A DNA stretch of 64,000 bases from Gluconacetobacter azotocaptans (GTDB lineage Bacteria > Pseudomonadota > Alphaproteobacteria > Acetobacterales > Acetobacteraceae), in contig NZ_JABEQF010000011.1 of NCBI RefSeq assembly GCF_014174355.1, positions 1 to 64,000 of the forward strand, in the 5' to 3' direction. The notes under the pieces were generated by a model that was not told the DNA's origin, made no database searches, and worked only from the letters and a program-made list of their open reading frames with translations. Positions 2,993 through 51,254 of the stretch are shown here, piece by piece (positions within the stretch are counted from its first letter, which is position 1; each line of letters opens with the position of its first letter). A program made the position numbers and the translations under genes.

Positions 2993-3057
2993 TCGGGCGC
3001 TGCCCGAACACGCCAGGGCCTGAGCCCCTGGACCCCGATCAGGAATAAACGATCGGG
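2993..3057 (+). repeat. Small double-hairpin intergenic repeat, copy 1, with an extra hairpin
   Basis: Contains TCGGGC-GCT-GCCCGA (2993-3007), then CCAGGG/CCCTGG (3013-3031), then a third dyad CCCGATC/GATCGGG (3034-3057). The first two hairpins follow the layout of the other copies in this window (12320, 51095 and the inverted 3061 and 12545). Lies in front of the glycosyltransferase gene. Could act as a terminator or a REP-like element. Confidence 0.6.
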
Positions 3058-3060
3058 CTT

Positions 3061-3102
3061 CCAAAGGGCGCCGCCCTTTGGCGGGTTTCAGGGCAGCGCC
3101 CT
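3061..3102 (-). repeat. Small double-hairpin intergenic repeat, copy 2 (inverted)
   Basis: CCAAAGGG/CCCTTTGG (3061-3081), a GCGGGTTTC spacer, and AGGGC-AGC-GCCCT (3090-3102). Read on the minus strand it matches the copies at 12320-12362 and 51095-51138: first a GGGC/GCCC hairpin, then an ACCCGCC spacer, then a CCAAAGG/CCTTTGG hairpin. It sits 8 bp from the large structured element at 3111. Confidence 0.7.
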
Positions 3103-3110
3103 GAGGTTCA

Positions 3111-3271
3111 GAGCCGGTTTGAAATGTGGGCTGGCAAGCGAGAGCGGAACGCAGTGAAGCGCCCGGCGTGTGGTTTCGAACACCGAAGCGGAGCGGCCTT
3201 ATCGGCCGTGAGCATCGGAGCGCAGAAAATGCGCGTCGGATCGCCGCCAGCGCGCATTTGCAAACCGGCTC
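3111..3271. repeat. 161-nt structured intergenic element, copy A
   Basis: The outer arms 3111-3135 and 3246-3271 form a long stem with one bulge, one wobble and one mismatch. Inside are hairpins CGGCC-TTATC-GGCCG (3194-3208) and GCGCA-GAAAA-TGCGC (3220-3234). The core (around CCCGGCGTGTG, GCGGAGCGGCC, GCGCGTCGGATCGCC) matches the element at 12377-12538, but the arms differ while still pairing. It ends one base before the xseA stop codon. Predicted ORFs through it look spurious. Confidence 0.75.
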
Positions 3272-4732
3272 TCAGATGTCCAGCAGCCCCTGGGCGGCCT
3301 CGGCCGGCTTTTCGATCTTCGCCATCGCCTCGCCGTCGGCGAAGGTCAGCACGACGCGGTGGCCGGGCCGCAGATCGGCCGCCCGCGTCACCGGCACGCC
3401 CGCCGGATTGCGCACCAGCACGTAGCCGCGTTCCAGCACCGCCATCGGCGACAGCGAGTCCATATGACCCGACAGCCCGGCCAGGCGGGTGGCGCGTTCG
3501 CGCAGCAGGGCGGCCAGCGGCGCGGGGGACAGGCGGGCGCGATCGGCCCGGGCGCGCCGGTCGCGCAGCACATGCCGCAACCCGGACTGCAGATGGCTGG
3601 CGGCCAGCATCAGGCGCGTCCGCCGGTCGCCGATCAACACCGCCGGGGGAGGCATGCGGCGTTCCACCGCCACCAGCGCCGCCCGCCGGCGATCGACCAG
3701 CGCCGGCAGCGCAAGGTCCAGCCGATAGCCCCGGTCATCCAGCCGCATCCGCGCGGTGCCCAGCAGCGACGGCAGGTCGGGCAGCCGCCCCGCCGCGCGG
3801 TCCAGCCGCAGGCGCAGCATCTGCGTGCAGCGCGCCAGGCCGCTGGTCAGCCGCGCGGCGCGATGCGCCAGGTCGGCTACCAGTTCGGTCCGTGCCGGCG
3901 CGGCCAGTTCTGCCGCCGCCGTGGGCGTGGGGGCGCGCCGGTCGGACACGAAGTCGATCAGCGTGGTGTCGGTCTCGTGCCCCACGGCGGAAATCAGCGG
4001 AATCGTGCAGGCCGCCGCCGCGCGTAGAACGGCCTCATCGTTGAAGGCCATCAGATCTTCCAGCGACCCGCCGCCGCGCGCGACGATCAGCACGTCGGGG
4101 CGGGGGATGCCGCCCCGCCCGTCGATGGCATCGAACCCCGCGATTGCCGCCGCGACCTGCGCCGCCGCCGCCTCGCCTTGCACGGCCACCGGCCAGATCA
4201 GCAGCCGGCGCGGGAAGCGCCGCGCGATGGTGGTGCGGATGTCGTGCAGCACCGCCCCCTGGGCCGAGGTCACGACACCGATCACATCGGGCAGGAACGG
4301 CAGGACCCGCTTGCGCGCGGCGTCGAACAGCCCTTCCTCGGCCAGTTTCAGGCGCAGCCGTTCGATGCGCGCCAGCAGCGCGCCCTCGCCCGCGTATTCC
4401 AGCCGGTCGATGATGAGCTGGTAGGACGAACGCTCGCCGTAGGACGAGATCTTGCCGGTGGCGATGACCTCGACGCCGTTTTCCGGCTTCAGCCCCAGGC
4501 GCGACACCGACCCGCGCCAGACGACGGACGAGATCTTGCCGCCTTCGTCCTTCAGCGAGAAATAGAGATGCCCGGACGGGTAGCGCTTGAATTCCGTGAT
4601 TTCGCCCCGCACGCGGATGCGGCCGAACGTGCCTTCCAGCGTGCGGCGGATGGCCCCCGAAATCTCGGAGACCGAATATTCGGGCACGTTGCCCGCCCCG
4701 GCGGTGCCGGAATCGCGAAGTGGTTCGTCCAT
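3272..4732 (-). CDS. xseA: Exodeoxyribonuclease VII large subunit
   Basis: 486 residues, normal for XseA. The N-terminal OB-fold is clear (YSVSEISGAIRRTLE...IRVRGEITEFKRYPSGHLYFSLKDE), followed by the catalytic region with VTSAQGAVLHDI, RRFPRRLLIWPVAVQG, VLIVARGGGSLEDLMAFNDE and ISAVGHETD...SDRRAPTPTAAAE, all family hallmarks. With XseB (not in this window) it degrades single-stranded DNA in repair. The start at 4732 is chosen because the family N-terminus begins there; the much longer open frame upstream is the shadow of divergent purD. A structured repeat abuts its stop codon. Confidence 0.93.
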   Translation of the reverse strand: MDEPLRDSGTAGAGNVPEYSVSEISGAIRRTLEGTFGRIRVRGEITEFKRYPSGHLYFSLKDEGGKISSVVWRGSVSRLGLKPENGVEVIATGKISSYGERSSYQLIIDRLEYAGEGALLARIERLRLKLAEEGLFDAARKRVLPFLPDVIGVVTSAQGAVLHDIRTTIARRFPRRLLIWPVAVQGEAAAAQVAAAIAGFDAIDGRGGIPRPDVLIVARGGGSLEDLMAFNDEAVLRAAAACTIPLISAVGHETDTTLIDFVSDRRAPTPTAAAELAAPARTELVADLAHRAARLTSGLARCTQMLRLRLDRAAGRLPDLPSLLGTARMRLDDRGYRLDLALPALVDRRRAALVAVERRMPPPAVLIGDRRTRLMLAASHLQSGLRHVLRDRRARADRARLSPAPLAALLRERATRLAGLSGHMDSLSPMAVLERGYVLVRNPAGVPVTRAADLRPGHRVVLTFADGEAMAKIEKPAEAAQGLLDI

Positions 4733-4802
4733 CGCCGCAGGGTATGATAGAGACGGCCCGCCCGGAAGGCCGGGCGTGCAGATGGAACAGGGAAACGGAT
4801 TG

Positions 4803-6083
4803 ATGCGGGTGCTGCTGGTCGGATCGGGCGGACGGGAACATGCGATGGCGGCCGCGATCGCGCGCTCACCGCTGCTGGAAGCCCTGTTCATCGCCCCCGG
4901 CAACCCCGGCACGGCGGCCTTGGGCACCAACGTCGCCATTGCCGCCGACGACGTCGCCGGGCTGGTCGCCCTGGCGCGCGCCGAGCGCATCGACCTGGTG
5001 GTGCCCGGCCCCGAGGCCCCGCTGGTCGCCGGCCTGGCCGATGCCTGCGACGAGGCCGGCATCGCCTGCGCCGGCCCGACCCGCGCCGCCGCCGAACTGG
5101 AAGGCAGCAAGAGCTTCACCAAGGACGTCTGCGACGCCGCGCGCATCCCCACCGCGCGGTGGGAGCGGTTCGACAGCATGGCTCCGGCGCTGGAGTTCGT
5201 GCGCCGGCGCGGCGCGCCGATCGTCATCAAGGCCGACGGGCTGGCCGCCGGCAAGGGCGTGGTCGTCGCCATGACCGAGGCCGAGGCCGAGGACGCGATC
5301 CGCGCGATGATGGACGACGCCAGCCTGGGCGACGCCGGCCGGTCGGTGGTGATCGAGGAATGCCTGGTGGGCGACGAGGTGTCGCTGTTCGCGTTCTGCG
5401 CCGGGGAAACCGCCGTGCTGATCGGCGCGGCACAGGACCACAAGCGCATCGGCGAGGGCGACACCGGCCCCAACACCGGCGGCATGGGCGCGGTCTCGCC
5501 CCCCACCGGCTTCGATCGCGCGCGGCAGGAAGCGGCGCTGGATGTGCTGGTCCGCCCCATGCTGGACGAGATGGTCCGGCGCGGCACCCCCTTTCGCGGC
5601 GTGATCTTCGCCGGCCTGATGCTGACCGACGACGGGCCGAAGCTGATCGAATATAACGTGCGTTTCGGCGACCCCGAGGCCCAGGCCCTGCTGATCCGGC
5701 TGGAATCCGACCTGCTGCCCGCCCTGGCCTCGGTCGCCGACGGCACGCTGGATACGACGGACATCCGCTTTTCCGACGACCATTCCATCAGCATCGTGCT
5801 GGCCGCGCGCGGCTACCCCGGCAAACCCGTGGCGGGCGGCGTCATCGACGGCATCGCCGAGGCCAACCACCTGCCCGGCGTGCATGTCTTCCACGCCGGC
5901 ACCCGTCAGGACGCCGAAGGCCGCATCATCGCCGCCGGTGGCCGGGTGCTGACGGTCTGCGCCACGGGCACGACGCTGGCCGAGGCCCGCAGCCGGGCCT
6001 ACCACGGCGTGGCCGCCATCCGCTGGGACGACGCGATCTGGCGCCGTGATATCGGCGAGCGGGCGTTGCGGGGGGAGTCATAA
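4803..6083 (+). CDS. purD: Phosphoribosylamine-glycine ligase (GARS)
   Basis: 426 residues, full length. It begins with MRVLLVGSGGREHAMA, the PurD nucleotide-binding start, continues with PGPEAPLVAGLAD and the ATP-grasp domain (VIKADGLAAGKGVVVA, EECLVGDEVSLFAF, NTGGMGAVSP, YNVRFGDPEAQ), and ends with the GARS C-domain. It joins phosphoribosylamine and glycine with ATP in step two of purine synthesis in the cytoplasm. GGAACAGGG upstream supports the ATG at 4803. It is divergent from xseA, with 70 bp between the starts. Confidence 0.95.
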   Translation: MRVLLVGSGGREHAMAAAIARSPLLEALFIAPGNPGTAALGTNVAIAADDVAGLVALARAERIDLVVPGPEAPLVAGLADACDEAGIACAGPTRAAAELEGSKSFTKDVCDAARIPTARWERFDSMAPALEFVRRRGAPIVIKADGLAAGKGVVVAMTEAEAEDAIRAMMDDASLGDAGRSVVIEECLVGDEVSLFAFCAGETAVLIGAAQDHKRIGEGDTGPNTGGMGAVSPPTGFDRARQEAALDVLVRPMLDEMVRRGTPFRGVIFAGLMLTDDGPKLIEYNVRFGDPEAQALLIRLESDLLPALASVADGTLDTTDIRFSDDHSISIVLAARGYPGKPVAGGVIDGIAEANHLPGVHVFHAGTRQDAEGRIIAAGGRVLTVCATGTTLAEARSRAYHGVAAIRWDDAIWRRDIGERALRGES

Positions 6084-6322
6084 AGCCCCCTCCCCCGGCC
6101 GGCCGTCGCGGGTGATAGGACGGATGGCCGGGAGCGGACCAGCAGCTTTGGGCATAGATATGCGAAAAGCTGACATCGGCCGGAGTGGTACATATTACGC
6201 TTTCGCCTCAAGTAGGCTATCAAATCGTAACTATGTCACCTTCTGAAAGCAGATACCGAGCGCATAGAGACCAAAATATGATCATGGAACGGAAATGCGA
6301 TGCTCTGGGTCTTGCATGCCAG

Positions 6323-8026
6323 TTAGTTACGCCCAAGGGTATTAATAGGCCAAGTTCTAACAGCCAAATCGGCTAGATGAGCTTGACGATTTTCGATTTC
6401 TTCTGGGCCCCATTTTTTGTATTCAGCAACGCCTTTTGTTATTACGAATGGGCTCTTGGAAAAGGCGAGACGTTTAGATGTAAAATCTGCATTACCTGCT
6501 GATGAATTGAGCCTCGCATTAAGAAGTACTAAATTGCCCAGTCTTGTCGTATAGCTTGCCGCGTCTTCGAAAGACTCAATGTCGAAGCTTTCAGGCTTAA
6601 TTGGCAACACGTGTTCCAGATTAACAGCTTTCGTGTCTTCATTCGGAACTTGTTCGGGAAGGCCAGAATTATCAGCAGATCGCTCGAGGGCCATAAGATA
6701 GTACCTTGCCAGCTTTGTCTTGGAAACATGACACTTCGCGAAAGCATCTCTGAAATCTCTATCATTTGCAACATGTGGCGCCATGCGTTGCACTAAAGCT
6801 TCTGCTGTCCTAATTCCGATTTTTGTATGAATATTATGAGCGAGCGATGCATAGATAGACTCAAGGCGACCCACTCGACCGCTATCTGCAATAAACATCC
6901 TTACTATCCACGAGACAAATAACTTAAATGATCTATCCGCCTCATGCTTGCTGAAATGATGCGTCACCGCTAGCATCAGGTGACGAATTTGGGTTACCCC
7001 CAACAGGTTGAGAGTTGCAACGGATCTGCGAATGCTTTCAGGATAGCTCTCCCACTTAAAATGATGTGGAGTAAGCATTGCAACATAGTCATTAGAAAAA
7101 CTGTTAATGGTCTCTAAAAATGTAACAGCTTTTATAGGTGATTCTGTCAGCGGCTTTATTCTTTCGAACACCTGACGCTCTCTTGTTAGGCCATTGATTA
7201 AAGTACTCACCAACCTAAGGTAATCAATTGCCGTATCTTCCTTGTCGACTGTCTCCAAAGATCTAATCATTGATGCCCATTTGGCTTTCGCCTCATCAAG
7301 TCTATTCCCTGCCTGACCAAAAAGATAATTTTTAACGAGATCTGCCTGTGAAACACGAAGGCCTCTATCGTTTAAAGTTTCAAACATAACATATGCATTG
7401 ACGTCGTCAGATACTGTAAGAACAATCAAATTCGCATGCTCTCTCAAATATGAGAGCCAGTCTTTCAAATGTTTTTTTCTTGTCTCCACAGTCATTGTTT
7501 TGGTTTCACTTTCCAGGAACCGACGCAAAATGGTGGCAGCATTTTTTATCCGCACATTGGAATGAGTGCCTACCGCAGGTTTGGCTTTTCTCTTAACATC
7601 TGAAGGCCTAGGAAGAATGCAGTTTTGGTAAAACTCGTGATCTCTTACGTTGAGGTGAAATTTAGGAGTGTCTTCTTCTGTATCCAAGTCTAAGCCGAAT
7701 AAATAAGTTTCCTCTATCCCATGCGCCAGTCTCACTTCGTCCATTGCCAGCAACATATCTCTTATGACGGCGATCAATATGGTTGTAGTTGCGAGTCTCT
7801 GCTGCCTATCGACAACTTCAAGATAACCATCTTTTGTTTTCGTCAGAACAACCGTTCCAAGAAAATAGGATTCTTTACTCTCTGACAATGCGTCACTGAT
7901 ATCGCTACAAAGAGCCTCTACATGCTCATCATCCCATGCATATTCACGTTGGTTTGCTGGAACACGCAATCTTCCAGCAGAAATCAACTCACCAATACCT
8001 TTATACGTAAAGTCTATAGCGCTCAT
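6323..8026 (-). CDS. DUF262/DUF1524 protein, GmrSD-like type IV restriction candidate
   Basis: 567 residues. The N-terminal DUF262 part shows VPANQREYAWDDEHVEAL and VVDRQQRLATT (about residues 22-81). The C-terminal DUF1524 HNH part shows NLEHVLPIKP (about 469-478) and LGNLVLLNARLNSSAGN. Fused GmrS-GmrD enzymes use the first domain for NTP-dependent recognition and the second to cut modified phage DNA. The usual DGQQR signature reads DRQQR here, so activity may differ. The gene is clearly AT-richer than its neighbours and sits alone between purD and a TonB receptor, as expected of a transferred defence gene. AAGGAAG upstream supports the start. Confidence 0.8.
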   Translation of the reverse strand: MSAIDFTYKGIGELISAGRLRVPANQREYAWDDEHVEALCSDISDALSESKESYFLGTVVLTKTKDGYLEVVDRQQRLATTTILIAVIRDMLLAMDEVRLAHGIEETYLFGLDLDTEEDTPKFHLNVRDHEFYQNCILPRPSDVKRKAKPAVGTHSNVRIKNAATILRRFLESETKTMTVETRKKHLKDWLSYLREHANLIVLTVSDDVNAYVMFETLNDRGLRVSQADLVKNYLFGQAGNRLDEAKAKWASMIRSLETVDKEDTAIDYLRLVSTLINGLTRERQVFERIKPLTESPIKAVTFLETINSFSNDYVAMLTPHHFKWESYPESIRRSVATLNLLGVTQIRHLMLAVTHHFSKHEADRSFKLFVSWIVRMFIADSGRVGRLESIYASLAHNIHTKIGIRTAEALVQRMAPHVANDRDFRDAFAKCHVSKTKLARYYLMALERSADNSGLPEQVPNEDTKAVNLEHVLPIKPESFDIESFEDAASYTTRLGNLVLLNARLNSSAGNADFTSKRLAFSKSPFVITKGVAEYKKWGPEEIENRQAHLADLAVRTWPINTLGRN

Positions 8027-8047
8027 CCGCTTCTTCCTTAGATTAAT

Positions 8048-8126
8048 TCATTTCCAATTAATGGAATGAACGAAAAGATTTTAGCATGATACCTTTTCAC
8101 TTTTTGTCGGGGTCACAAAGTGAAAA
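8048..8126. promoter_or_regulatory. Two dyads upstream of the GmrSD-like gene, candidate operator sites
   Basis: A perfect 10-bp inverted repeat TTTTCACTTT (8094-8103) / AAAGTGAAAA (8117-8126) lies about 68 bp upstream of the GmrSD-like start. Closer in, TTCATTTCCA / TGGAATGAA (8048-8071) forms an imperfect dyad. They are positioned for control of the minus-strand gene at 8026. They could instead be a terminator remnant. No regulator gene is adjacent. Confidence 0.35.
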
Positions 8127-8573
8127 AATATATTTCCACAACATATGGGGATTAGCAGGCTTGGATAGCGAAGCGGCTGATTGGAAATTCGACCGTCTAC
8201 CTTTTGTTATTGCAGTATCTCCACTAATACCAATCCAGTGTTAGCTAATTTCAGGCTCTCGACCCAATGTCCATTTGGCAATTTCGGCCGTATTGCGGAC
8301 AGTCTCGTTTCCCCGCGCGGCCCGATGTCCGCTTCCGAGACATGGACTGTCCTGCCTGAATGACGGGATGGGGTGCATAGCGGCTGACAGTGGTTATTGC
8401 GGGATGTCGCTATTGGGATCGGAAGCCGAGCCGTTGACCGTCCGAATGGGGTCGAAATTACACGGTCCTGTTGACATCATCCGAAGGCGAGGAAGGCGGT
8501 GACGAGGAAAATCATGGCGCATTCGAAGTGGGGCTCCTCCGATAGCACCGATCGCACCGCCCCCCTTCCCCCC
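8127..8573. other. Intergenic stretch, no recognisable gene
   Basis: About 450 bp between the AT-rich defence gene and the TonB receptor stop codon. Only short open frames without family features are present. A minus-strand tail ending near 8503 (FECAMIFLVTAFLAFG then stop) has the look of the end of a decayed gene, possibly a transposase, but I cannot confirm this. This is probably the scarred edge of an insertion. Confidence 0.4.
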
Positions 8574-10712
8574 TCAGAACGCAGCGGACAGGCTGAGATT
8601 GAACGAACGCCCCAGGCCGGGCAGTGGTCCCAGGAGGCCGGTGGCGCGGTAGTCGCCCAGGGACAGGCCGCCCAGTGGCAGATCGTATTTCTGGTTGGTC
8701 ACGTTCTCGATGCTGGCGTCGAGCGTGAGGTTGCGCCAGCGGTAGGTGCCGCCCAGGCCCAGCAGCGCGTAGCCGGGCGTGCGCGGTTCGTTGCGTAGCC
8801 AGTCTACCGTGCTTTTGGCTTTCACCAGCGTGACCTCCACATGGCCGGTCCAGTTCCGCCAGGTCTCGTGCAGGCTGATTGCGCCGTTGGCGGGCATCTG
8901 GTGGTACAGGCCGGAATGCGTCACCAGGTCCTGGCCGCGCACCCAGTTGAGGTTGGCGTGAAGCTCGCCGGTCCCAAAGGCGTCGGATTTCCACAGGCGG
9001 ACGAAGGCGGAGCTGTTGATGCCGTAGCTCTGGGCGTCGTGATTGGCGAATTGCAGTTTCGACAGGCCGCTGGCGAGTGCGCCGATCCGCACCACGTTGA
9101 TGTAATGGTGCGTGTAGGTGTAATAGGGCTGCACCTTCACCTGCCAGGCGTTGTCCACCGGGTCGTGCCAGGTGATCGTGGTGCTGGCGGTATTGGCGAC
9201 TTCCGGCGTCAGGTTCAGGTTGCCGACATAGCCGTTGCCGTCGCCGAACCAGCCGATCATCGTGGTGGCCATGTTGCCCATGCCCCAGGCATAGCGTTCG
9301 TACAGGTTCGGCGAGCGCGTCTTGCGGGCATAGCCGCCGTCGATCATCAGGCTATCCAGCGGATGCCAGTGCAGCAGCGCCGTGACGTCGAAATTGGTAT
9401 CGGTCCGCCCGCGCGACGCCGCGTTGAAGCGGCGGGCCGCCATGGCGTCGCTCATGCTCATCATGCCCGTCCAGGAATAGGGCGCGACCGGGCCGGCATT
9501 CATCATCACCAGGTCGCTGCGCAGGCCGAGTTCGGTCGAAAAGCGCGGCAGCCACTGCGCCTTCCATTCGACGTAATGGCCCAGCCGGTCGCGGTGGCCG
9601 TCGTTGATGTTATGGAACGTGCCCGGCCCCATCATCATGCTGCCCTGCAGGGGCGGCCACCAGTCGTTCACCCCGTTATGGTCGAACGAACTGCCCAGGC
9701 CCAGCGTATGGCGCGGGCCCAGCGGAATGGTCGCCTTGATGGAATAGGCGGCCGTCCGCGTATCGGTGTTCATGGGCATGCCGGTGGTGGGGCTGTGGCC
9801 GCCCTTGTCGGACAGCATGTTCATGGCGTGGTCGACCCGCTGCCAGAAGCCCCGGGCCTCCAGCGTGCCCCAGTTGAAATCGCCCGTGTACTTGCCGTTG
9901 ACGAAGGTGGACCGGTTGTTGGTCATGTCCATGTACTGGTTGGCGAATCCTTCGTAGGGGATGTCCTGCTGCCCGAACGTCAGCGCCAGTTGATGGTTGG
10001 CCTTTCGGACGCCCAGCGTCACGGCATGGTTGAAGCTGAGATAGTTGGTCGACAGCACGCGCTGGCCGCCGCCGCCCGCGTGATAGTCGTCGGCATGGCT
10101 GTACGAGCCGGTGTAGCGCAGGCTCAGCCAGTCGTTGGCGACGGTGACGGAGCCGGAAGCGCCGGAGCCCCCGCCATTGCTGCGATAGTCGCCGCGCGCA
10201 TGGCCGGTGACGAGGATTTTGGAATTGCGGGCGAAGATCGGGTCCTTGCGATCGACCTCGATGGTGCCGCCGGTGCTGTCGCCGCCCTGGCTGACCGAGG
10301 TGATGCCCGCGATCGCGACGGCGGTGGAAACCGCGTCGGGGTCGATATAGGACATGGCGGGATTCATGTGGTTGGGACAGGCGGAGGCGATCCGCATGCC
10401 GTCCACGAACGTCGCGACGCGATCGTCCGCCATGCCGTTGAGCACGGGCAATGCCGAGACGCCGCCGGCCGAATAGGTGCTGAACCCGAGGCTGTGCCGG
10501 AACAGGCCGGTGGTGTCGTGGCCGGTCGTGAGGGTGCGACGCAGGCCGTTGACCGTGATCACTTCCTGGTCGGCGGCGTCGATGGCCGGTGCAATGGCCC
10601 GCGTGACGGGGTCCTGGGCCCGGGCGGGCGCGACAGGCGCCAGCAGCGTGGCGGAGCAGCCGCAGGCAAGCAGCCCGGCGCGGGACGCGCGCCGGACACG
10701 AATGAATGTCAT
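8574..10712 (-). CDS. TonB-dependent copper receptor, OprC-like
   Basis: 712 residues. A signal peptide (cleavage near APARA, residue 32) is followed by a plug domain with TFVDGMRI and a 22-strand-type barrel ending in the aromatic LSLSAAF. The plug holds ACPNHMNPAM, placing C112 and M116 in the CxxxM spacing, and the barrel holds DHAMNM with H295 and M297 in the HxM spacing. In Pseudomonas OprC these two pairs bind copper. The protein is Met/His-rich in its loops (MMMGPGTFHN, MMSMSDAM). It probably imports copper across the outer membrane. It is the last gene of a long same-strand array, 83 bp after a DUF2946 gene. The start at 10712 is set by the signal peptide. Confidence 0.85.
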   Translation of the reverse strand: MTFIRVRRASRAGLLACGCSATLLAPVAPARAQDPVTRAIAPAIDAADQEVITVNGLRRTLTTGHDTTGLFRHSLGFSTYSAGGVSALPVLNGMADDRVATFVDGMRIASACPNHMNPAMSYIDPDAVSTAVAIAGITSVSQGGDSTGGTIEVDRKDPIFARNSKILVTGHARGDYRSNGGGSGASGSVTVANDWLSLRYTGSYSHADDYHAGGGGQRVLSTNYLSFNHAVTLGVRKANHQLALTFGQQDIPYEGFANQYMDMTNNRSTFVNGKYTGDFNWGTLEARGFWQRVDHAMNMLSDKGGHSPTTGMPMNTDTRTAAYSIKATIPLGPRHTLGLGSSFDHNGVNDWWPPLQGSMMMGPGTFHNINDGHRDRLGHYVEWKAQWLPRFSTELGLRSDLVMMNAGPVAPYSWTGMMSMSDAMAARRFNAASRGRTDTNFDVTALLHWHPLDSLMIDGGYARKTRSPNLYERYAWGMGNMATTMIGWFGDGNGYVGNLNLTPEVANTASTTITWHDPVDNAWQVKVQPYYTYTHHYINVVRIGALASGLSKLQFANHDAQSYGINSSAFVRLWKSDAFGTGELHANLNWVRGQDLVTHSGLYHQMPANGAISLHETWRNWTGHVEVTLVKAKSTVDWLRNEPRTPGYALLGLGGTYRWRNLTLDASIENVTNQKYDLPLGGLSLGDYRATGLLGPLPGLGRSFNLSLSAAF

Positions 10713-10795
10713 GACGAAAGAACCTTCAGCGGAACGAAGACAGCCGCCGCCCCGCCCCTTCCGGTGGTCCGGAAAAGGCGCGGTCGCGCGGCGCT

Positions 10796-11266
10796 TTATG
10801 CGTTTCGGCTGAAGGCGGGCGGCCCCGTGGGGGGCGGAAGGACGACCGGGCGCGCGCAGGGCGGGGCGCGCGGCATGTGCGCGCCGTACAGCAGCCGCCG
10901 CCAGCCGGTGACGGTCAGCACGATGGCGGGGGCCGCGCCCAGCACGACCATCGGGAGATGCAGCAGCGGGCACAACGGGCAATACCCGTCGTCATGGTGA
11001 TGCGTGTGATGACCGTCGGCCATGCCCGCCATGTCGGACATGTCCATGCCGGGCATGGCCGCCGAAGCATCGGCCGGGCCGATCGACAGACCGGTCAGGC
11101 GTTCGAACGTCGCGCGCGGCGTCTCGTCAGGGCGGGCCTGCCCTTGCAGCACAAGCTGGCCCACCAGACCCGCCAGGACGCAGACGACCAGCAGCCAGCG
11201 CGGAAGGCTGGCCGGCGGAAGGCTCCGACATCCGGGATGGGTCGCGCGCAGGGGCCTGCCTTTCAC
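10796..11266 (-). CDS. DUF2946 family membrane protein, Met/His-rich
   Basis: About 156 residues if the GTG at 11266 is used; another GTG at 11359 would overlap the end of oppF. A first membrane segment (LPRWLLVVCVLAGLVGQLVLQ) is followed by a metal-binding-looking loop MPGMDMSDMAGMADGHHTHHHDD, then the CPLCP motif typical of DUF2946, and a second hydrophobic stretch (MVVLGAAPAIVLTVTG). The Met, His and Cys residues suggest copper handling on the periplasmic side, which fits its position directly before the OprC-like receptor. The function of the family is not established. Confidence 0.7.
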   Translation of the reverse strand: MKGRPLRATHPGCRSLPPASLPRWLLVVCVLAGLVGQLVLQGQARPDETPRATFERLTGLSIGPADASAAMPGMDMSDMAGMADGHHTHHHDDGYCPLCPLLHLPMVVLGAAPAIVLTVTGWRRLLYGAHMPRAPPCARPVVLPPPTGPPAFSRNA

Positions 11267-11331
11267 GTCGCCGCTGATGCGGGCAAAAAAAACGGAACGC
11301 GCCGACCTTGTAAACCCCAAGGCGGAATGCC

Positions 11332-12309
11332 TCAGCCGCCCGCCAGCGGGAAATGGCACGCCACCTGCCGGCCGTCGCCCGGGTCACGCAGGGCCGGCGG
11401 GTCGGTGCGGCAGCGGTCCTGCGCGATGGGGCAGCGGGTGTGGAAGCGGCACCCCGGCGGTGGCGCGATCGGGCTGGGGACGTCGCCGCGCAGCGGGGGC
11501 GCGCGGTCGCCGTCGGGCAGCACCACCGGTTCGGGCACGGCGGCGATCAGGGCGGCGGTGTAGGGGTGCGCCGGGCGGTGCAGCACGGTATCGGCGTCGC
11601 CCAGTTCGACGATGGCGCCCAGATACATCACCGCGACGCGGGTCGAGATCTGGCGCACCACCGCCAGATCGTGGGCGACGAACACGTAGGTCAGGCCCAG
11701 CCGGTCGCGCAGGTCCATGAACAGGTTGACGATCTGCGCCTGGATCGACACGTCCAGCGCCGAGACCGGTTCGTCGGCCACCACCAGCCGGGGCGACAGC
11801 GCCAGGGCGCGGGCGATGTTGATCCGCTGCCGCTGGCCGCCGGAAAATTCGTGCGGGTAGCGCGCCAGCGCCGCCTGCGGCAGGCCCACCAGGGCCATCA
11901 GTTCGGCCAGCCGCGCCGCGATATCGGCCGCCGTCCGCCGCCGCCCCTGCCCGTCGCGATGCACGCGCAGCGGCTCGGCGATCAAATCGCCGATGCGCCG
12001 GCGCGGGTTCAGCGAGGCGTAGGAATCCTGGAACACCATCTGCATTCCCTGCCGCAGCGGGCGCAGCGTGCGTTCGGACAGGGCGGTGATGTCGGTGCCG
12101 TCGAAGACCACGCGGCCCGCCGTGGGCCGGGCCAGGCGCAGCAGGCAGCGCCCCAGCGTCGATTTGCCGCAGCCGGATTCGCCCACCAGCCCCAGCACCT
12201 CGCCCGGCCGGACGGCCAGCGACACCCCGTCCAGCGCGCGCAGCACCTGCCCCCGGCCGACGCGGTACTCCATGCGCAGGGACTGGGCCTCGATCAGCGG
12301 TGCGGTCAT
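11332..12309 (-). CDS. oppF: Oligopeptide/dipeptide ABC transporter ATPase (OppF/DppF type)
   Basis: 325 residues. Walker A GESGCGKST, Q-loop MVFQDSYASLNPRRRI, signature SGGQRQRINIARALAL, Walker B LVVADEPVSALDVS, and the C-terminal oligopeptide-ATPase region with GCRFHTRCPIAQDRC, which in this family can bind an iron-sulfur cluster. It energises the OppBC channel with OppD. AAGGAG lies 6 nt before the ATG at 12309. A 290-bp gap with a structured repeat separates it from oppD, the only large gap in an otherwise tightly packed operon, so its expression may be set apart from the upstream genes. Confidence 0.9.
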   Translation of the reverse strand: MTAPLIEAQSLRMEYRVGRGQVLRALDGVSLAVRPGEVLGLVGESGCGKSTLGRCLLRLARPTAGRVVFDGTDITALSERTLRPLRQGMQMVFQDSYASLNPRRRIGDLIAEPLRVHRDGQGRRRTAADIAARLAELMALVGLPQAALARYPHEFSGGQRQRINIARALALSPRLVVADEPVSALDVSIQAQIVNLFMDLRDRLGLTYVFVAHDLAVVRQISTRVAVMYLGAIVELGDADTVLHRPAHPYTAALIAAVPEPVVLPDGDRAPPLRGDVPSPIAPPPGCRFHTRCPIAQDRCRTDPPALRDPGDGRQVACHFPLAGG

Positions 12310-12319
12310 CGCGTTCTCC

Positions 12320-12362
12320 TTGGGGCGCTGCCCCAAACCCCGCCAAAGGCAGTCGCCTTTGG
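12320..12362 (+). repeat. Small double-hairpin intergenic repeat, copy 3
   Basis: TTGGGGC-GCT-GCCCCAA (12320-12336), an ACCCCGCC spacer, then CCAAAGGC-AGTC-GCCTTTGG (12343-12362). Same design as 51095-51138 and the inverted 3061-3102. It lies inside the opp operon between oppD and oppF. Confidence 0.75.
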
Positions 12363-12376
12363 AAACCAGTTGTTGG

Positions 12377-12538
12377 GAGGCTGTTTCACAAGGCGGTCTG
12401 CCGAGCGAGAGTGCCGCGAAGCGGCACGCCCGGCGTGTGTTTCCGAGCACTGGAGCGGAGCGGCCTTGATGGCCGTGAGCACCAGCGCGCAGGAAACGCG
12501 CGTCGGATCGCCGGCAGACCGCCTTGTGAAACAGCCTC
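12377..12538. repeat. 162-nt structured intergenic element, copy B
   Basis: Perfect 27-bp terminal inverted repeats (12377-12403 and 12512-12538) enclose hairpins GTGCCGC-GAA-GCGGCAC (12411-12427), CGGCC-TTGAT-GGCCG (12461-12475) and GCGCG/CGCGC (12485-12501). The core matches the element at 3111-3271, while both outer arms have changed together so that pairing is kept. It sits in the oppD-oppF gap. Confidence 0.8.
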
Positions 12539-12544
12539 TGGGGT

Positions 12545-12598: not shown

Positions 12599-13606
12599 TC
12601 ATACGGTCACGCACCGCGCCGGCAGGTCGCGCCCTTCGGCGGGCAGCACGCAGGCGATGTCCTGCACCCCGCGCGGCAGCAGCGGCGGACGCACGGCGCA
12701 GGCGTCGTGCGCGTAGGCGCAGCGCGGGGTGAAGGGACAGCCGGCCGGGCGGTCGGCGGGGGCTGGGGGGCTGCCGGGGATGGAGGGCAGGCGCGCCGGC
12801 CGCGCGCCATGCAGCGGCGGGATCGAATCCAGCAGGGCGGCGGTATAGGGGTGGCCCGGCCGGGCAAACACCGCGCCGGTCGGCCCGCGTTCGGCGATGG
12901 TGCCGGAATACAGCACCATGGTGCGGTCGCAGGTTTCGGCCACCACCCCCATGTCGTGGGTGATCAGCAGCACGGACGACCCGTATTCCCGCCGCAGGCG
13001 GCGCAGCAGGTCCAGGATCTGCGCCTGCACGGTCACGTCCAGCGCCGTCGTCGGTTCGTCGGCGATCAGCAGCGAGGGGTTGCAGGACAGCGCCATGGCG
13101 ATCATCGCGCGCTGGCGCAGGCCGCCCGAAAGCTGGTGCGGATAGCGGTCGGCGACGCGCGCGGGGTCGGGCACGCCCATGTCGCCCAGCAGGCGGATGG
13201 TGCGGGCGCGGGCGTCCTTGCGCGTGACCCGGCCGTGGGCGCGGATCTGCTCGTCGATCTGCCAGCCCACCGTGTAGACCGGGGTGAAGGCGGTCATCGG
13301 ATCTTGGAAGATCATCGCGATTTCGCGGCCGCGCAGGGTGCGGAAGGCGCGCTGCGGCAGGCCGACCAGTTCGCGGCCCTTGAAGCGCGCCGAGCCGGTG
13401 ATGCGCGCACCCGGCGCGTCGATCAGGCCCATCAGCGCCAGCGCCGTCATGCTCTTGCCCGACCCGGACTCGCCGACGATGCCCAGGATTTCCCGCGCGC
13501 CCAGCGTGAACGAAACGGAATCGATGATGTTCACCATCCGCCCGCCGACGGGCAGCGCGATCGTCAGGTCCCGGACCGCCAGCAGCGGGGTTGCGTCAGC
13601 GTCCAT
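12599..13606 (-). CDS. oppD: Oligopeptide/dipeptide ABC transporter ATPase (OppD/DppD type)
   Basis: 335 residues. Walker [25 protein letters not shown], signature [14 protein letters not shown], Walker [16 protein letters not shown]-loop [10 protein letters not shown], and the family C-terminal [15 protein letters not shown]. The ATG at 13606 shares its A with the oppB stop codon (TGATG), so translation is coupled. It works with OppF to drive peptide import through OppB/OppC. Confidence 0.9.
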
Positions 13607-14583
13607 CAGGCCCGTCCATCCCGCACCCGGGGGTCCAGCAGCAGATACAGCATGTCGACCACGGCATTGGCGATGACGACGAACACCGCCGAATACATTA
13701 CCGTCGCCATGATCAGCGGCAGGTCCAGATTGCCCAGCGCCTGGTAGGTCAGGCGCCCCACGCCCTGCAGGCCGAACACGACCTCGGTCAGCAGCGCGCC
13801 GCCGCCGACTAGCTGCGCGAAATCCAGCCCGAACAGCGACACGAAGGTGATCATGGAGGTGCGCAGCCCATGGAACAGCAGCACCCGCGCGGGCGACAGG
13901 CCCTTGGCGCGGGCGGTGCGCATGAAATCCTCGCCCCGGACGGCCACCAGGTCGGCGCGCAGCACGCGGCTGTAGATGCCGACGAACAGCACCGCCAGCG
14001 TGATCCACGGGATGACCAGCGCCCGGAACCAGCCCAGCGGGTCCTGCGTGAAGGGCACATAGCCCAGCCCCGGCACCCAACTGAACAGCCAACTGTCGTG
14101 ATAGCGGCTCTGCGTCAGCAGGTTGGCGACCTGGCCCAGCCAGAAGACGGGGATGGAAATGCCCACCAGCCCCAGCATCATCAGCCCCCGGTCCACCCAT
14201 GTGCCGCGCAGCGCCGCCGCCAGCGTGCCCATCGCCACCGCGGCCAGCACCCAGATGGCCGCCGCCCCGGTGACCAGCGACACCGTGACCGGGGCCGCCT
14301 GGAAGACCTCGGGCACCACCTTTTCCCCGCGATTGACGTAGGACGTCAGGTCCCGCGTCACGAACAGCTTTTCCATCATCCGGACGTACTGCACCGGCAA
14401 CGGCCGGTCGAAGCCATATTCGACCCGCACCCGCGCGATGGTCTGGGGCGAGGCGTTGCGCCCGGCGATGCGCGCCGTGGGGTCGGCCCCCGGGGTGGCG
14501 AAGAACACCAGGAACACCAGCACCGAAATGCCGAAAAGCACGAACAGCGTCTGCCCCAGCCGCCGCAGGATCGCCATCGCCAT
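13606..14583 (-). CDS. oppB: Oligopeptide ABC transporter permease (OppB/DppB type)
   Basis: 325 residues. Begins MAMAILRRLGQTLFVLFGISVLVFLVFFATPGDP-like (here PGADPTARIAG), the standard N-terminus of OppB/DppB. Six membrane segments follow, with the EAA-type loop VRGEDFMRTARAKGLSPARVLLFHGLR. It forms half of the membrane channel. The start overlaps the oppC stop and the stop overlaps the oppD start by one base each. The very long open frame upstream on this strand is the shadow of oppC and a binding protein in another frame. Confidence 0.9.
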   Translation of the reverse strand: MAMAILRRLGQTLFVLFGISVLVFLVFFATPGADPTARIAGRNASPQTIARVRVEYGFDRPLPVQYVRMMEKLFVTRDLTSYVNRGEKVVPEVFQAAPVTVSLVTGAAAIWVLAAVAMGTLAAALRGTWVDRGLMMLGLVGISIPVFWLGQVANLLTQSRYHDSWLFSWVPGLGYVPFTQDPLGWFRALVIPWITLAVLFVGIYSRVLRADLVAVRGEDFMRTARAKGLSPARVLLFHGLRTSMITFVSLFGLDFAQLVGGGALLTEVVFGLQGVGRLTYQALGNLDLPLIMATVMYSAVFVVIANAVVDMLYLLLDPRVRDGRA

Positions 14584-15635: not shown

Positions 15636-17333
15636 TTAGCGGACCCAGAGCTGGGCGATGAGCAGAAGATAGTACGGGCTGACCGCCACATGGCCCACCC
15701 GCGCGGACACGACATCCACCCGCCGGGTCTGGACCAGCGGCACCACCGGGGCCTGCGCCATCACATCGCGGCCGACCTGCCGCCACAGGGCGTCGGCCCG
15801 CGCCGGATCGGTCATCTGGGCCAGCGACGCCGCGCGCATCGCGCCGTCCAGCGCGGGGTCGCACAGGCCGGACATGTTCAGCGAATTGTCCGACCCAGGA
15901 TGGAAGCTGTCGCAGGCGAACAGCGTGTGCAGGTAGCTGGCGGGCGCGGGATAGTCGGATTCCCAGCCGGTAAAGCCGATCTGCACGTCGTTGGCGGTGT
16001 TCTGGAGGTACGAAAATTCCACCGTGGGCGTGATCGCCCGCGTGGTGGCGCGATAGCCCAGCGCCGTCAGCACGTCGCGCACCTCGCCCGCGATGGCGAT
16101 GGCGACCGGCGCGGTCTGGGTCACGATGGACACCGCCTGCCCCGCCGTGCCGCTGGCGCGCACCAGCGCGCGGGCGCGGTCCATGTCCGGCCCCTGCCAG
16201 GACGGCGCCGGATGCTCGGCCGAGGCGCCGCGTCCGTAGGCGCAGGCCGGGTCGTATCCCATCAGGCCGCGCGGCAGCATGCCGCATGACGGCAGCGCCA
16301 GCGCCGGGCCGCCTTCGTGGATCACCACGGCGTGCCGGTCGATGGCGTCGTTCAGCGCCCGGCGCACCGCCGGATTGTCGAAGGGCGGCCGCCGGACGTT
16401 CAGTTCCATGTAATAGACCACCTGCATGTCCGAGATGTGCACGCGCGCGGTGTAGCGGTCGCCCAGTTCGCCCAGCCGGTCGCCGGGCGGCGTGTCCAGC
16501 ATCCAGTCGTACTGGCCATTTTCCACTGCCGTAACCTCGGCCTCGGCATCCAGGCCGAAATCGTACTCGATGCGGTCGGGATAGCCGTCGGGCTGCGCCA
16601 CCGGGTTCCAGGCGTGGAAGTAGGGGTTACGTTCCATCCGCAGCCCGCGGTCGGGATCGTAGGAAGTGATGCGGTACGGCCCGGTGCCCGGCGGGGCAAT
16701 GTTGCCGGTATCGGCGCCGGGCGTATCGGCCGGGACGATCGCGGCCTGGGGAAAGGCCAACTGGTACAGGAAATCCGGATCGGGCCGCGCCAGATGGAAG
16801 GTGACGGTGCCCGCCGCCGCATCGGCCACCACGCCGCCGGCCAGGGTGCAGTCCGCGCCCCCCTTCAGGCAGGGGCCGGCGCCGACCAGATCGCCGAAAT
16901 AGGGGCCGGCGGCCGGGCTGTTGACGCGAAAGATGCGGCGCATCGTCGCCGCCACGTCGGCGGCCGCCAGCTCCTGCCCGTTGGAAAAGCGCACGCCGCG
17001 CCGCAGGCGAAACACATAGGTCAGGCCGCCGTCGCGGATGTCGGGTGGCCCGTCGGCTAGGTCGGGGATCGGCTGGTCGCCGTCGCCGGGGCGGACGGGG
17101 CCGCTTTTGGGAAAGGCCATCAGCCCGTCGTAGACCGGGGCTTCCAGTTGCAGGTTTTCATGTTCGTAGGCGATCTGCGGGTCCAGCGACCCGCCCGATA
17201 CCGTCGCGGTCAGGCGCAGGGTACCGCCGCGATGGCCGGGATCGGCCGCCCCGGCCGGGCAGGCCGCCGCCATCCACGCGGCCCCGGCGCAGGCGAGGCC
17301 GGCCCATCGGCGCGCCCTCATGCCGCCCGGCAT
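15636..17333 (-). CDS. Extracellular solute-binding protein family 5 (peptide type), copy 1
   Basis: 565 residues. Signal peptide (GLACAGAAWMAAACPAGAA) and a mature SBP_bac_5 domain: GGTLRLTATVSGGSLDPQ, YDGLM, VFRLRRGVRFSNGQELAAADVAATMRRI, TGPYRITSYDPDRGLRMERNPYF, and VRRALNDAIDRHAVV. It captures a peptide-like or metallophore-like ligand in the periplasm and hands it to OppBC. It is followed by oppC after 9 bp. It is clearly paralogous to the next gene upstream. M5 (17321) is an alternative start. Confidence 0.88.
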   Translation of the reverse strand: MPGGMRARRWAGLACAGAAWMAAACPAGAADPGHRGGTLRLTATVSGGSLDPQIAYEHENLQLEAPVYDGLMAFPKSGPVRPGDGDQPIPDLADGPPDIRDGGLTYVFRLRRGVRFSNGQELAAADVAATMRRIFRVNSPAAGPYFGDLVGAGPCLKGGADCTLAGGVVADAAAGTVTFHLARPDPDFLYQLAFPQAAIVPADTPGADTGNIAPPGTGPYRITSYDPDRGLRMERNPYFHAWNPVAQPDGYPDRIEYDFGLDAEAEVTAVENGQYDWMLDTPPGDRLGELGDRYTARVHISDMQVVYYMELNVRRPPFDNPAVRRALNDAIDRHAVVIHEGGPALALPSCGMLPRGLMGYDPACAYGRGASAEHPAPSWQGPDMDRARALVRASGTAGQAVSIVTQTAPVAIAIAGEVRDVLTALGYRATTRAITPTVEFSYLQNTANDVQIGFTGWESDYPAPASYLHTLFACDSFHPGSDNSLNMSGLCDPALDGAMRAASLAQMTDPARADALWRQVGRDVMAQAPVVPLVQTRRVDVVSARVGHVAVSPYYLLLIAQLWVR

Positions 17334-17343
17334 CCCGCCCCGG

Positions 17344-19086
17344 TCACTGCACCCATACGCGCGAAAAGCACAGGTGATAGAGGTTGGTGTAGAAATAATG
17401 CCCCAGCCGGCGCGACACTAGGTCGATGTAGTTCATCCGGATCATCGGCACGTCGGGGCTGTCGCGGTCGATCGCGCGGTTGGCCTGCGCCCACAGGTCG
17501 GCCGCCTGCGCCGGATCGGTCGCGGCCTTGGCGCGGTCCATCAGCGCCTGGGCCGCGCGGTCGCAATAGCCGGCGATATTGATGGAATTGTCCGAACCGG
17601 GATGGAAATTCTCGCACCCCAGCAGATCGTCCAGGAAGTTCGACGCCGACGGGTAATCGGCGAACCAGTCGGAAATGCTGATCTGGACCTTGTTGGCGGT
17701 GTTCTGGATGTAGCCGAGCTGCACGGAGTGGGCCAGCGGCTTGACGCTGGCGTCATAGCCGATGGCCTGCAGCATGTTGCGCAGATAGACACCCATGCTC
17801 ATGTCCACGGCGGTGTTCTGCACCACCAGGGTCACATGCTGCCCGCGCGTGCCGCTCTGCGCCACCAGGGCGCGGGCGCGGTCCAGGTCCGGGGCCTGCC
17901 ATGTGGCGGCCCGATGGTCGGGGTCGGCCCCGCGCGTATAGGAACAGCCGTCGATCGCCCCCGGGATGCCGTTCGGCACCATGGTGCACAGCGGGGCCGC
18001 GACCCCCGTGCCGCCATACAGGATGACCATCGCCCGCCGGTCCATCGCGTAGTTCACCGCCTGCCGGGCCAGCCTGTTGTCGAAGGGCGGCAGGTTGACG
18101 TTCATCGGGGCGTAATACATGCCGAACAGCGGACGGACATGGACCTGCGCGGCATAGCGCGACCCCAGCTCGCCCAGCCGGTCCAGCGGCTTGTTGTCGA
18201 ACATCCAGTCGTACTGGCCGTTTTCGATCGCCGTCACCTCGGCCTCGTCCGGCAGGCCGAAATCGTAGGTGATATGATCGGCGTAGCCGTCGGGCTGGGC
18301 GTCGGCGCTCCAGACCCGGAAATACGGATTGCGCTCCAGCTTTGCGCCCCGGTCGGGGTCGTACGAGGCGAAGCGGTACGGCCCTGTGGTGGGGGCCGGC
18401 ACATTGCCCAGATCGTGGTCCGGCAGGTCGGCCGGCAGGATCGACGCATGGGGGAAGGCCAGCTTCTGCAGGAATTCGGCGTCGGGATCGCGCAGGTGGA
18501 ACACCACGGCGCGGGTCGCCGGATCGACCTCCAGCCCGCCTCGCAGGGTGCAGTGCGCCGGGTCGCGCAGGCAGGTGTCGGCGCCGACGATATTGCCGTA
18601 GAACGACCCCGCTGTGGGGCTGCCGACGCGGAAGATGCGGCGCATCGACGCCGCCACGTCGGCCACCGTGACCGCCCGCCCATCGGAAAAGCGCAGGCCC
18701 TGCCGCAGGACGAAGCGCCAGGTGCGCCCCCCGTCGACGGGCTGCGGCACCGCTTCCGCCAGGTCGGCGACGACTGCGTTGCCGTCCGGCCCCTCGGCCT
18801 TGGGGAAGGTCACCAGCCCGTCGTACAGCACCGCGAACAGTTGCGCGTATTGCGAGGTGTAATTCAGTTGCGGGTCGAGCGTCCCGCCCGACGACGACGC
18901 CGTCAGCCGCAGGGTGCCGCCCCGATGCGGGCTACCCAAAGTCTGCCCGTTATCGGCTGGCCCGCTATCGGTGTGCCGGGCATCGGCGGCCGCGCCCCCG
19001 CGATCCTGCGCCCCGGCCGGCGCCGCGCCTCCGGCCGCCGCCAGCAGCAGCCCGGCGGCCAGGGCGCGCGACGGCCAGGCCCCCAT
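17344..19086 (-). CDS. Extracellular solute-binding protein family 5 (peptide type), copy 2
   Basis: 580 residues with a signal peptide ending PAGAQ. It shares block after block with its neighbour at 15636: RGGTLRLTASSSGGTLDPQLN, FVLRQGLRFSDGRAVTVADVAASMRRIFRVGSPTAG, TGPYRFASYDPDRGAKLERNPYF, FHPGSDNSINIAGYCD. The two are a tandem duplication that has diverged, so they may bind different ligands for the same permease. The start ATG directly follows the TGA of the Sco-like gene with no gap, so translation is likely coupled. Confidence 0.88.
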   Translation of the reverse strand: MGAWPSRALAAGLLLAAAGGAAPAGAQDRGGAAADARHTDSGPADNGQTLGSPHRGGTLRLTASSSGGTLDPQLNYTSQYAQLFAVLYDGLVTFPKAEGPDGNAVVADLAEAVPQPVDGGRTWRFVLRQGLRFSDGRAVTVADVAASMRRIFRVGSPTAGSFYGNIVGADTCLRDPAHCTLRGGLEVDPATRAVVFHLRDPDAEFLQKLAFPHASILPADLPDHDLGNVPAPTTGPYRFASYDPDRGAKLERNPYFRVWSADAQPDGYADHITYDFGLPDEAEVTAIENGQYDWMFDNKPLDRLGELGSRYAAQVHVRPLFGMYYAPMNVNLPPFDNRLARQAVNYAMDRRAMVILYGGTGVAAPLCTMVPNGIPGAIDGCSYTRGADPDHRAATWQAPDLDRARALVAQSGTRGQHVTLVVQNTAVDMSMGVYLRNMLQAIGYDASVKPLAHSVQLGYIQNTANKVQISISDWFADYPSASNFLDDLLGCENFHPGSDNSINIAGYCDRAAQALMDRAKAATDPAQAADLWAQANRAIDRDSPDVPMIRMNYIDLVSRRLGHYFYTNLYHLCFSRVWVQ

Positions 19087-51094: not shown

Positions 51095-51138
51095 TCAGGG
51101 CTCTGCCCTGAAACCCGCCAAAGGCCGCCGGCCTTTGG
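51095..51138 (+). repeat. Small double-hairpin intergenic repeat, copy 5
   Basis: TCAGGGC-TCT-GCCCTGA (51095-51111), an AACCCGCC spacer, then CCAAAGGC-CGCCG-GCCTTTGG (51118-51138). It matches copies at 12320-12362 and, inverted, 3061-3102. It stands 29 bp upstream of the lsdG start, so it may affect the secretion operon leader. Confidence 0.75.
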
Positions 51139-51254
51139 AAACCAATCTGTTGATCCATGAGCGGAGTGCATCTGTCATTGCGTCCGCCGGTTGGTACAAT
51201 GTTATAAAACCGCGCGCCCATAGCGGGTCGATCACGGAAAGGCCGGGGCCCGCC

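Follow-up and report, generated by a model that had tools for sequence, protein, structure and literature searches.

A family of small mobile palindromes with co-varying arms and a conserved folded core in Gluconacetobacter azotocaptans and scattered Alphaproteobacteria

The 64,000-nucleotide stretch of Gluconacetobacter azotocaptans DNA analysed here (positions 1 to 64,000 of contig NZ_JABEQF010000011.1; hereafter the window) contains two related palindromic elements, designated copy A and copy B, which are members of a family of interspersed small mobile DNA elements scattered through the Alphaproteobacteria. Taken as a whole, they are probably miniature inverted-repeat transposable elements (MITEs) with IS5-type ends, whose arms would be repaired from one another and whose life would include a single-stranded step. 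The initial annotation of the window had left the choice between a structured RNA and a MITE; the latter is supported by target-site duplications, by empty sites and, for part of the copies, by similar ends of insertion sequences (ISs), whereas a structured RNA was not demonstrated.

The proposed explanation runs as follows. A non-autonomous mobile element of about 160 bp would fold around a three-way junction formed by outer arms (P1), a side hairpin (P2) and a core hairpin of considerable length (P3). The terminal ~15 bp of recent copies in Gluconacetobacter may serve as ends for an IS5-type transposase that is provided by insertion sequences located elsewhere, and the insertion would duplicate 3 bp of the type T-N-A, as documented for two copies by empty sites. 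A copy that lands on a stop codon would preserve the stop of the gene, and such copies may therefore be tolerated and persist. After insertion, template switching during replication would copy a mutation of one arm into the other, and the arms of the palindrome would drift but remain matched, as the pattern of changes suggests. Finally, one strand would be kept foldable, which points to a single-stranded step, either as DNA or as RNA, in the life of the element.

The mobility of the family is reflected by the comparison with related genomes. The site of copy A is empty in the nearest relative (G399), whose flank is 97% identical and carries a single TCA at the position where G. azotocaptans harbors TCA, the element and a second TCA. 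A further copy of the same genome (L006; G000:C8:35731-35874) also has an exact empty site with a single TCA in G399. The copies L014, L008 and L015 come near a clean 3-bp duplication, and those of L004 and L007 are not clean. Copy B is common to G. azotocaptans and the more distant relative G406 and is missing from G399, though not precisely. Duplications were scored for the 73 of 118 arm-paired copies whose right end lies no more than 4 nt from a stop-like triplet (the remaining 45 were unscored), and an exact 3-bp duplication is present in 10 of the 29 copies with GA...TC ends and in none of the 44 copies with other ends. The target-site duplications that the initial annotation had proposed to look for hence exist with a fixed length of 3 bp, in these ten copies as well as at the two empty sites.

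A potential source of the transposase was found in related genomes. Among 30 examined loci with a PF13340-type transposase, four are insertion sequences of 864-930 bp with GAG... ends and TNA duplications and the other 26 lack such ends, as judged from the two best-ranked end pairs listed per locus. The four insertion sequences, whose hosts are three members of the genus and one of a sister genus, end in GAGACTGTTTGGAAAA, GAGCCCGATCCGAAAG, GAGCCCTTTTGGAAAT or GAGCGCCTTTCAAAAC, with TTA, TTA, TCA or TAA as the flanking triplets. One of these ends is matched at 13 or more of 20 positions by 24 of 111 copies, compared with 13 of 2,000 random pairs. IS1031-type elements, the group of IS5-family insertion sequences to which the mobiliser of this MITE is likened, make 3-bp TNA duplications. 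The family shares with bacterial IS5-family MITEs (IS1031-like) its size, the terminal inverted repeats, the 3-bp duplication, a variable copy number, a mostly intergenic location and shortened forms with both ends. It also shares their shortness (~160 bp) and lack of coding capacity, the open reading frames across it being mechanical calls. In contrast to those MITEs, the outer arms of the present family vary widely between copies yet remain paired, its interior consists of a conserved asymmetric hairpin plus a side hairpin, it is directional at stop codons, and a different lineage combines its core with ends of another kind and duplications of 5 bp. Element-like end pairs at a distance of just 55-91 bp (G000:C6:169109-169165, C21:6433-6487 and C2:23458-23548) are apparent short forms that lack most of the interior.

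The distribution of the family was investigated at several levels. With copy B as a query, 45 matching pieces were detected in the G. azotocaptans genome (4.13 Mb in 57 contigs), 18 of which cover at least 118 of the 162 bases; 40 of the 80 candidates were scored, and some of the remaining pieces are parts of one copy or self-matches of an arm. A pattern scan of named genomes revealed at least 112 stretches, and the matches listed stem mostly from Gluconacetobacter species, but also from Endobacter medicaginis, from bins of Acidisphaera (one), Acetobacteraceae and Rhodospirillales, and from single records labelled Aurantiacibacter, Novosphingobium, Sphingomonadales, Nevskiaceae, Deltaproteobacteria and Proteobacteria, although some of the distant records may have little beyond the searched hairpin in common. 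The core was also modelled by covariance (R1; 62 positions), and this model has matches at E <= 1e-4 in 21 of 22 chosen genomes. The number of core matches per genome, which is possibly a lower bound as 150 candidates were scored in each, ranges from 6 to 127 across 14 genomes of the genus (23 in G. azotocaptans), is 38 in one sister genus and 0 in another, and amounts to 8 to 52 in each of six genomes that belong to a different family and were picked for earlier hits. In a phylum sample, 23 of 398 genomes match R1 at E <= 1e-3, 20 of which are G. azotocaptans itself or belong to its class, and in a class sample the model matches 20 of 385 genomes at E <= 1e-4; the filters used for both samples lose weak hits. 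Two rhizobial queries against plasmids identified 36 and 33 records, mainly from Sphingobium, Shinella, Agrobacterium and Phyllobacterium, and the search of viral contigs gave 0 matches. The further copies in related genomes on which the initial annotation had made its proposal depend are present according to the pattern scan and the covariance model.

Some copies are arranged as neighbours in head-to-tail orientation with a spacing of ~147-171 nt (L033, L036, L039, L065, L111, L113 and G406:C8:164571-164871). On Shinella plasmids (H10, H11, H55, H56) the core lies under a feature annotated as a pyridoxal-dependent decarboxylase, i.e., the element may run into a coding sequence or be annotated as one. 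In L089 and L143, core relatives are located beside apparent tRNA genes on the opposite strand, as seen by eye.

The two copies of the window, which the initial annotation had recognized as related elements, align at 76% in a repeat search (3123-3272 versus 12390-12539). The same search confirms the perfect 27-bp stem of copy B, and the stem of copy A, read by eye, spans 25-26 nt and contains a single bulged C, a single G-G mismatch and a single U-G wobble. An alignment of 35 copies (A3) folds into P1, P2 and P3; 97.4% of its 2,260 cells are paired compared with 34-42% in slid controls, percentages that are inflated because score and length limits favoured well-paired arms in the choice of all rows except copy A, and because A3 itself supplied the structure. 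The double changes are not explained by this choice. The pairs change on both sides in 43 of 65 cases, and the covariation of 0.437 contrasts with 0.145 +/- 0.007 in 500 shuffles, 0 of which reached it. Two-sided changes affect 332 cells of the 35 copies, with cells counting sequences and not events. The compensatory arm changes suspected from copies A and B are thus a property of the family. Conversely, the inner hairpin that had been proposed to change from GCGCA/TGCGC to GCGCG/CGCGC is not a pairing of the family, as the alignment pairs its 3' half farther upstream (columns 61-76 with 124-138). The recurrent non-pairs of the core comprise A-A mismatches, GA-type loops and purine-rich internal loops, which are partly imposed by the search pattern. 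The bases GCGGAGCGGCCTTNNNGGCCGTGAGC were fixed by this pattern, and it is hence no evidence that they do not vary in alignment A2 and in the majority of A3 rows. The high G+C content, which makes hairpins common, might suggest that the elements are mere chance palindromes or that they arose in the assembly. We give this reading next to no credence, since it is refuted by the fold energies of the + strand relative to dinucleotide shuffles (z = -6.7 for copy A and z = -14.4 for copy B; 100 shuffles each), by the slid controls and by the presence of copies in many independent genomes.

The mode of arm maintenance can be retraced at ten shared sites with 267 pair columns. Counted per pair column, 231 are invariant, 17 are compensated and 19 are variable without compensation; the compensated columns include a transversion in eight cases and transitions only in nine. 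At the site of L007, the copies of G. azotocaptans and G406 differ by four compensated pairs and zero single changes, and at the site of copy B by two compensated pairs and four single changes. The transversions, which lack a wobble intermediate, together with the pattern at the shared sites fit a self-templated correction of the palindrome better than stepwise selection on an RNA. As we read these comparisons, the arms would be kept matched mainly by such a correction.

The elements often follow directly on the stop codon of a gene. A frame that is open for 100 codons or more ends within 8 nt of the right end only in 60 of 118 copies, of the left end only in 8, of both ends in 13 and of neither in 37, and the expectation for random placement is 3.8% per side. 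Outside the genus, a hand count showed the stop of an open frame 57-75 nt to the right of the core center in 20 of 26 loci and at the same distance to the left in 6 of 26. The right-hand gene is encoded on the minus strand in 92 of 118 copies, and the same gene end is occupied across several species in 16 groups. TCAG is present at the right end of 52 of the 73 scored copies, in comparison with CTGA at 211 of 462 other (background) stops. It is also found without the stop of a called gene at L013 and L084 and likewise, by eye, at L002 and L035, thus indicating that the polarity may in part reflect a preferred target sequence rather than gene function.

Several observations weigh against the explanation of the family as IS5-type MITEs with self-repaired arms. 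Transposition itself was not observed. The site of L006, which is empty in G399, carries a decayed copy in G406 (loci L006, L289 and L358), and the empty site may accordingly result from a precise loss, or the site from repeated insertion. Most copies resemble the ends of the four insertion sequences no more than by chance (median of 10 of 20 positions; control 9). The PF13340 insertion sequences of the G. azotocaptans genome were rejected as a source, because both hits have different ends, and no insertion sequence with the ends in question was found in this genome; candidates for the transposase-linked relatives envisaged by the initial annotation come from related genomes and resemble 24 of 111 copies. 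The compensated columns include three of 17 with an intermediate state in some species, as a stepwise change would give. A symmetric transposase predicts neither the right-end polarity at stops nor the conservation of the core across the class. Furthermore, the arm defects on the core strand comprise 136 G-U versus 17 A-C cells, or 69 versus 17 distinct contexts, in 114 distinct copies. The ratio is 52 to 15 in columns with Watson-Crick as the commonest pair and 86 to 53 in the 26 loci outside the genus, several of which come from one genus or one site (L161 was dropped as its core was not found, and L147 is not in the count). One strand seems to be kept foldable, which is again not predicted by a symmetric transposase. 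Transcription of the neighbouring gene is not supported as the cause, because copies without a minus-strand right gene retain the wobble bias (26 versus 2 contexts), in a test whose p-values treat related copies as independent and overstate the certainty. Of the two causes that had originally been considered for the paired changes, selection on structure or joint conversion of the arms, conversion is favored by the shared-site comparisons, although three of the 17 compensated columns have an intermediate; the one-strand wobble bias indicates that the folding of this strand matters too.

These observations raise the question of a functional structured RNA, which would be transcribed and selected at gene ends as a 3' end protector, a terminator or a small RNA. 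Such an RNA would account for the very strong covariation, the excess of G-U over A-C, the + strand fold that is more stable than the - strand fold in 103 of 104 copies, the recurrent loops and A-A mismatches of the core (with the same proviso on the search pattern), the 16 groups with shared gene ends and the three columns with intermediates. We nevertheless regard it as unlikely, given that the foldable strand is opposite to the mRNA of the adjacent gene in most copies, that copies are gained or lost precisely, and that eight compensated columns include a transversion. Moreover, an Rfam search of the window reported two tRNAs only, with the elements reaching the gathering score of no family, and the core in 20 loci of the class and phylum samples had no gathering-score match. 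The matches in these loci, a cobalamin riboswitch and a tmRNA hit by two models, are located next to the core.

An element that moved as a single strand, either as folded + strand DNA via a HUH-type enzyme or as RNA with reverse transcription, and whose right end was joined to CTGA or stop codons, is in our view quite unlikely. It would fit the polarity within and outside the genus, the frequency of TCAG at the right end and the persistence of the wobble bias without a minus-strand right gene, but the exact 3-bp and 5-bp duplications and the inverted-repeat ends are marks of double-strand cut-and-paste transposases. A candidate enzyme is not known either, and genes for HUH enzymes and reverse transcriptases were not searched for.

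The same core is associated with other ends in other lineages. The genome G541 harbors near-identical recent copies with the ends GAGGCCATTTCAAAAC and, as seen by eye, 5-bp duplications that are exact in L323, L336, L339, L340 and L342 and contain one mismatch in L335 and L337 (L334, L338 and L341 are not scorable). In G550 the ends are different again. An autonomous element in these genomes, suggested by near-identical copies at contig starts, was rejected: a frame of 467 codons at L322 stops before the element, and no listed frame crosses the element at L323, the frames of both loci having had no family search. A search for the G541 end pattern retrieved 99 places with pairs that are element-sized (by eye) and none at insertion-sequence distance, with the exception of two element copies ~0.5 kb apart on C77 and of combinations with 3-mismatch sites. 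It is conceivable, if doubtful, that a single folded core, itself conserved, has spread among the Alphaproteobacteria by swapping ends that fit different transposases, with 3-bp duplications in Gluconacetobacter and 5-bp duplications in an AT-rich genome. The core and its one-strand folding would then be the constant part, a chassis with its own single-stranded step that sets the stop-codon side.

Palindromic or long intergenic repeats have previously been reported for Alphaproteobacteria, namely RIME, Sm-repeats and A/B/C motifs in rhizobia, CIR in Caulobacter and Bru-RS in Brucella (PMC2573895, PMC10969869). Our comparison with these repeats of the same class rests on such descriptions and not on sequence. 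S. meliloti is not listed among the 36 and 33 plasmid records of the two rhizobial queries, a weak hint against RIME, Sm and ABC repeats, which are also located on the S. meliloti megaplasmids. The REP sequences of the GTAG and CGTC super-families are reported to be palindromic and interspersed, to measure 20-40 bp with an unpaired tag and sometimes to give flanking open reading frames a stop codon; CGTC repeats are described as missing in Acetobacteraceae (PMC3733652). The present family is likewise palindromic and interspersed, but its size of ~160 bp does not agree with the 20-40 bp tagged palindrome, so that its size does not support a REP/RAYT membership, neither the GTAG and CGTC tags nor an associated Y1 tyrosine transposase gene having been searched for. 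Template switching has been described to make and keep RNA hairpins (PMC8794818). Those hairpins share with our element the paired changes that arise by copying one arm from the other; the present case differs as it concerns a mobile bacterial repeat and is inferred from the pattern alone. Among the titles and passages found by the literature search, which included those of PMC1273637, PMC2573895, PMC2245857, PMC2873474, PMC10969869, PMC2267715 and PMC3733652, none describes the element.

By convention, a functional RNA is proven by its covariation, and here a mobile palindrome exhibits extreme covariation. Applied to repeats of this kind, covariation tests would indicate a structured RNA regardless of whether it is real, and the wobble bias provides a way to distinguish arms that are paired by self-templating from a single folded strand under selection. 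If Gluconacetobacter and AT-rich genomes indeed share a core whose ends and duplication lengths change, this would represent a new mode of MITE spreading, which is testable with the filled and empty sites of related species.

The positions of both copies and their neighbours are compiled in Table 1. The location of copy A next to the stop codon of xseA and that of copy B within the opp operon, both noted in the initial annotation, are in agreement with the domain searches: the former adjoins the exonuclease VII large subunit gene (PF02601), and the latter is flanked by two ABC ATPase genes that both have the oligopeptide-transporter C-terminal domain PF08352. Copy B lies 60 nt behind the stop of the upstream gene.

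Table 1. Features of copies A and B and adjacent genes in the window (+ is the strand of the conserved core)
Feature	Position	Strand	Basis
Copy A, whole element (161 bp)	3111..3271	+	sequence, repeat search, genome search
Copy A, left outer arm	3111..3135	+	sequence
Copy A, right outer arm	3246..3271	+	sequence
Copy A, conserved core hairpin (model R1)	3170..3231	+	covariance-model match, E 5.9e-18
Copy A, left TCA of the 3-bp target-site duplication	3108..3110	.	single TCA at the G399 empty site
Copy A, right TCA of the duplication, forming the TGA stop of the gene for the exonuclease VII large subunit	3272..3274	-	empty site, PF02601
Copy B, whole element (162 bp)	12377..12538	+	repeat search, genome search
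Copy B, left outer arm, perfect 27-bp stem	12377..12403	+	repeat search
Copy B, right outer arm	12512..12538	+	repeat search
Copy B, side hairpin P2 (TGCCGC-GAA-GCGGCA)	12412..12426	+	sequence, helix 2 of the 35-copy alignment
Copy B, conserved core hairpin (model R1)	12437..12498	+	covariance-model match, E 2.6e-20
Upstream neighbour of copy B, oligopeptide-type ABC ATPase gene	12599..14200	-	domain search
Downstream neighbour of copy B, oligopeptide-type ABC ATPase gene	11332..12309	-	domain search; start codon chosen by the analyst

A second GC-rich palindromic repeat directly adjoins copies A and B (window positions 3029-3104 and 12318-12365) and is also present at 51095-51170; similar stretches occur at several further places of the genome and in relatives. 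Finally, the window contains tandem paralogous stretches at 15852-17068 and 17554-18770 with 70-72% identity and a spacing of 1702 bases.

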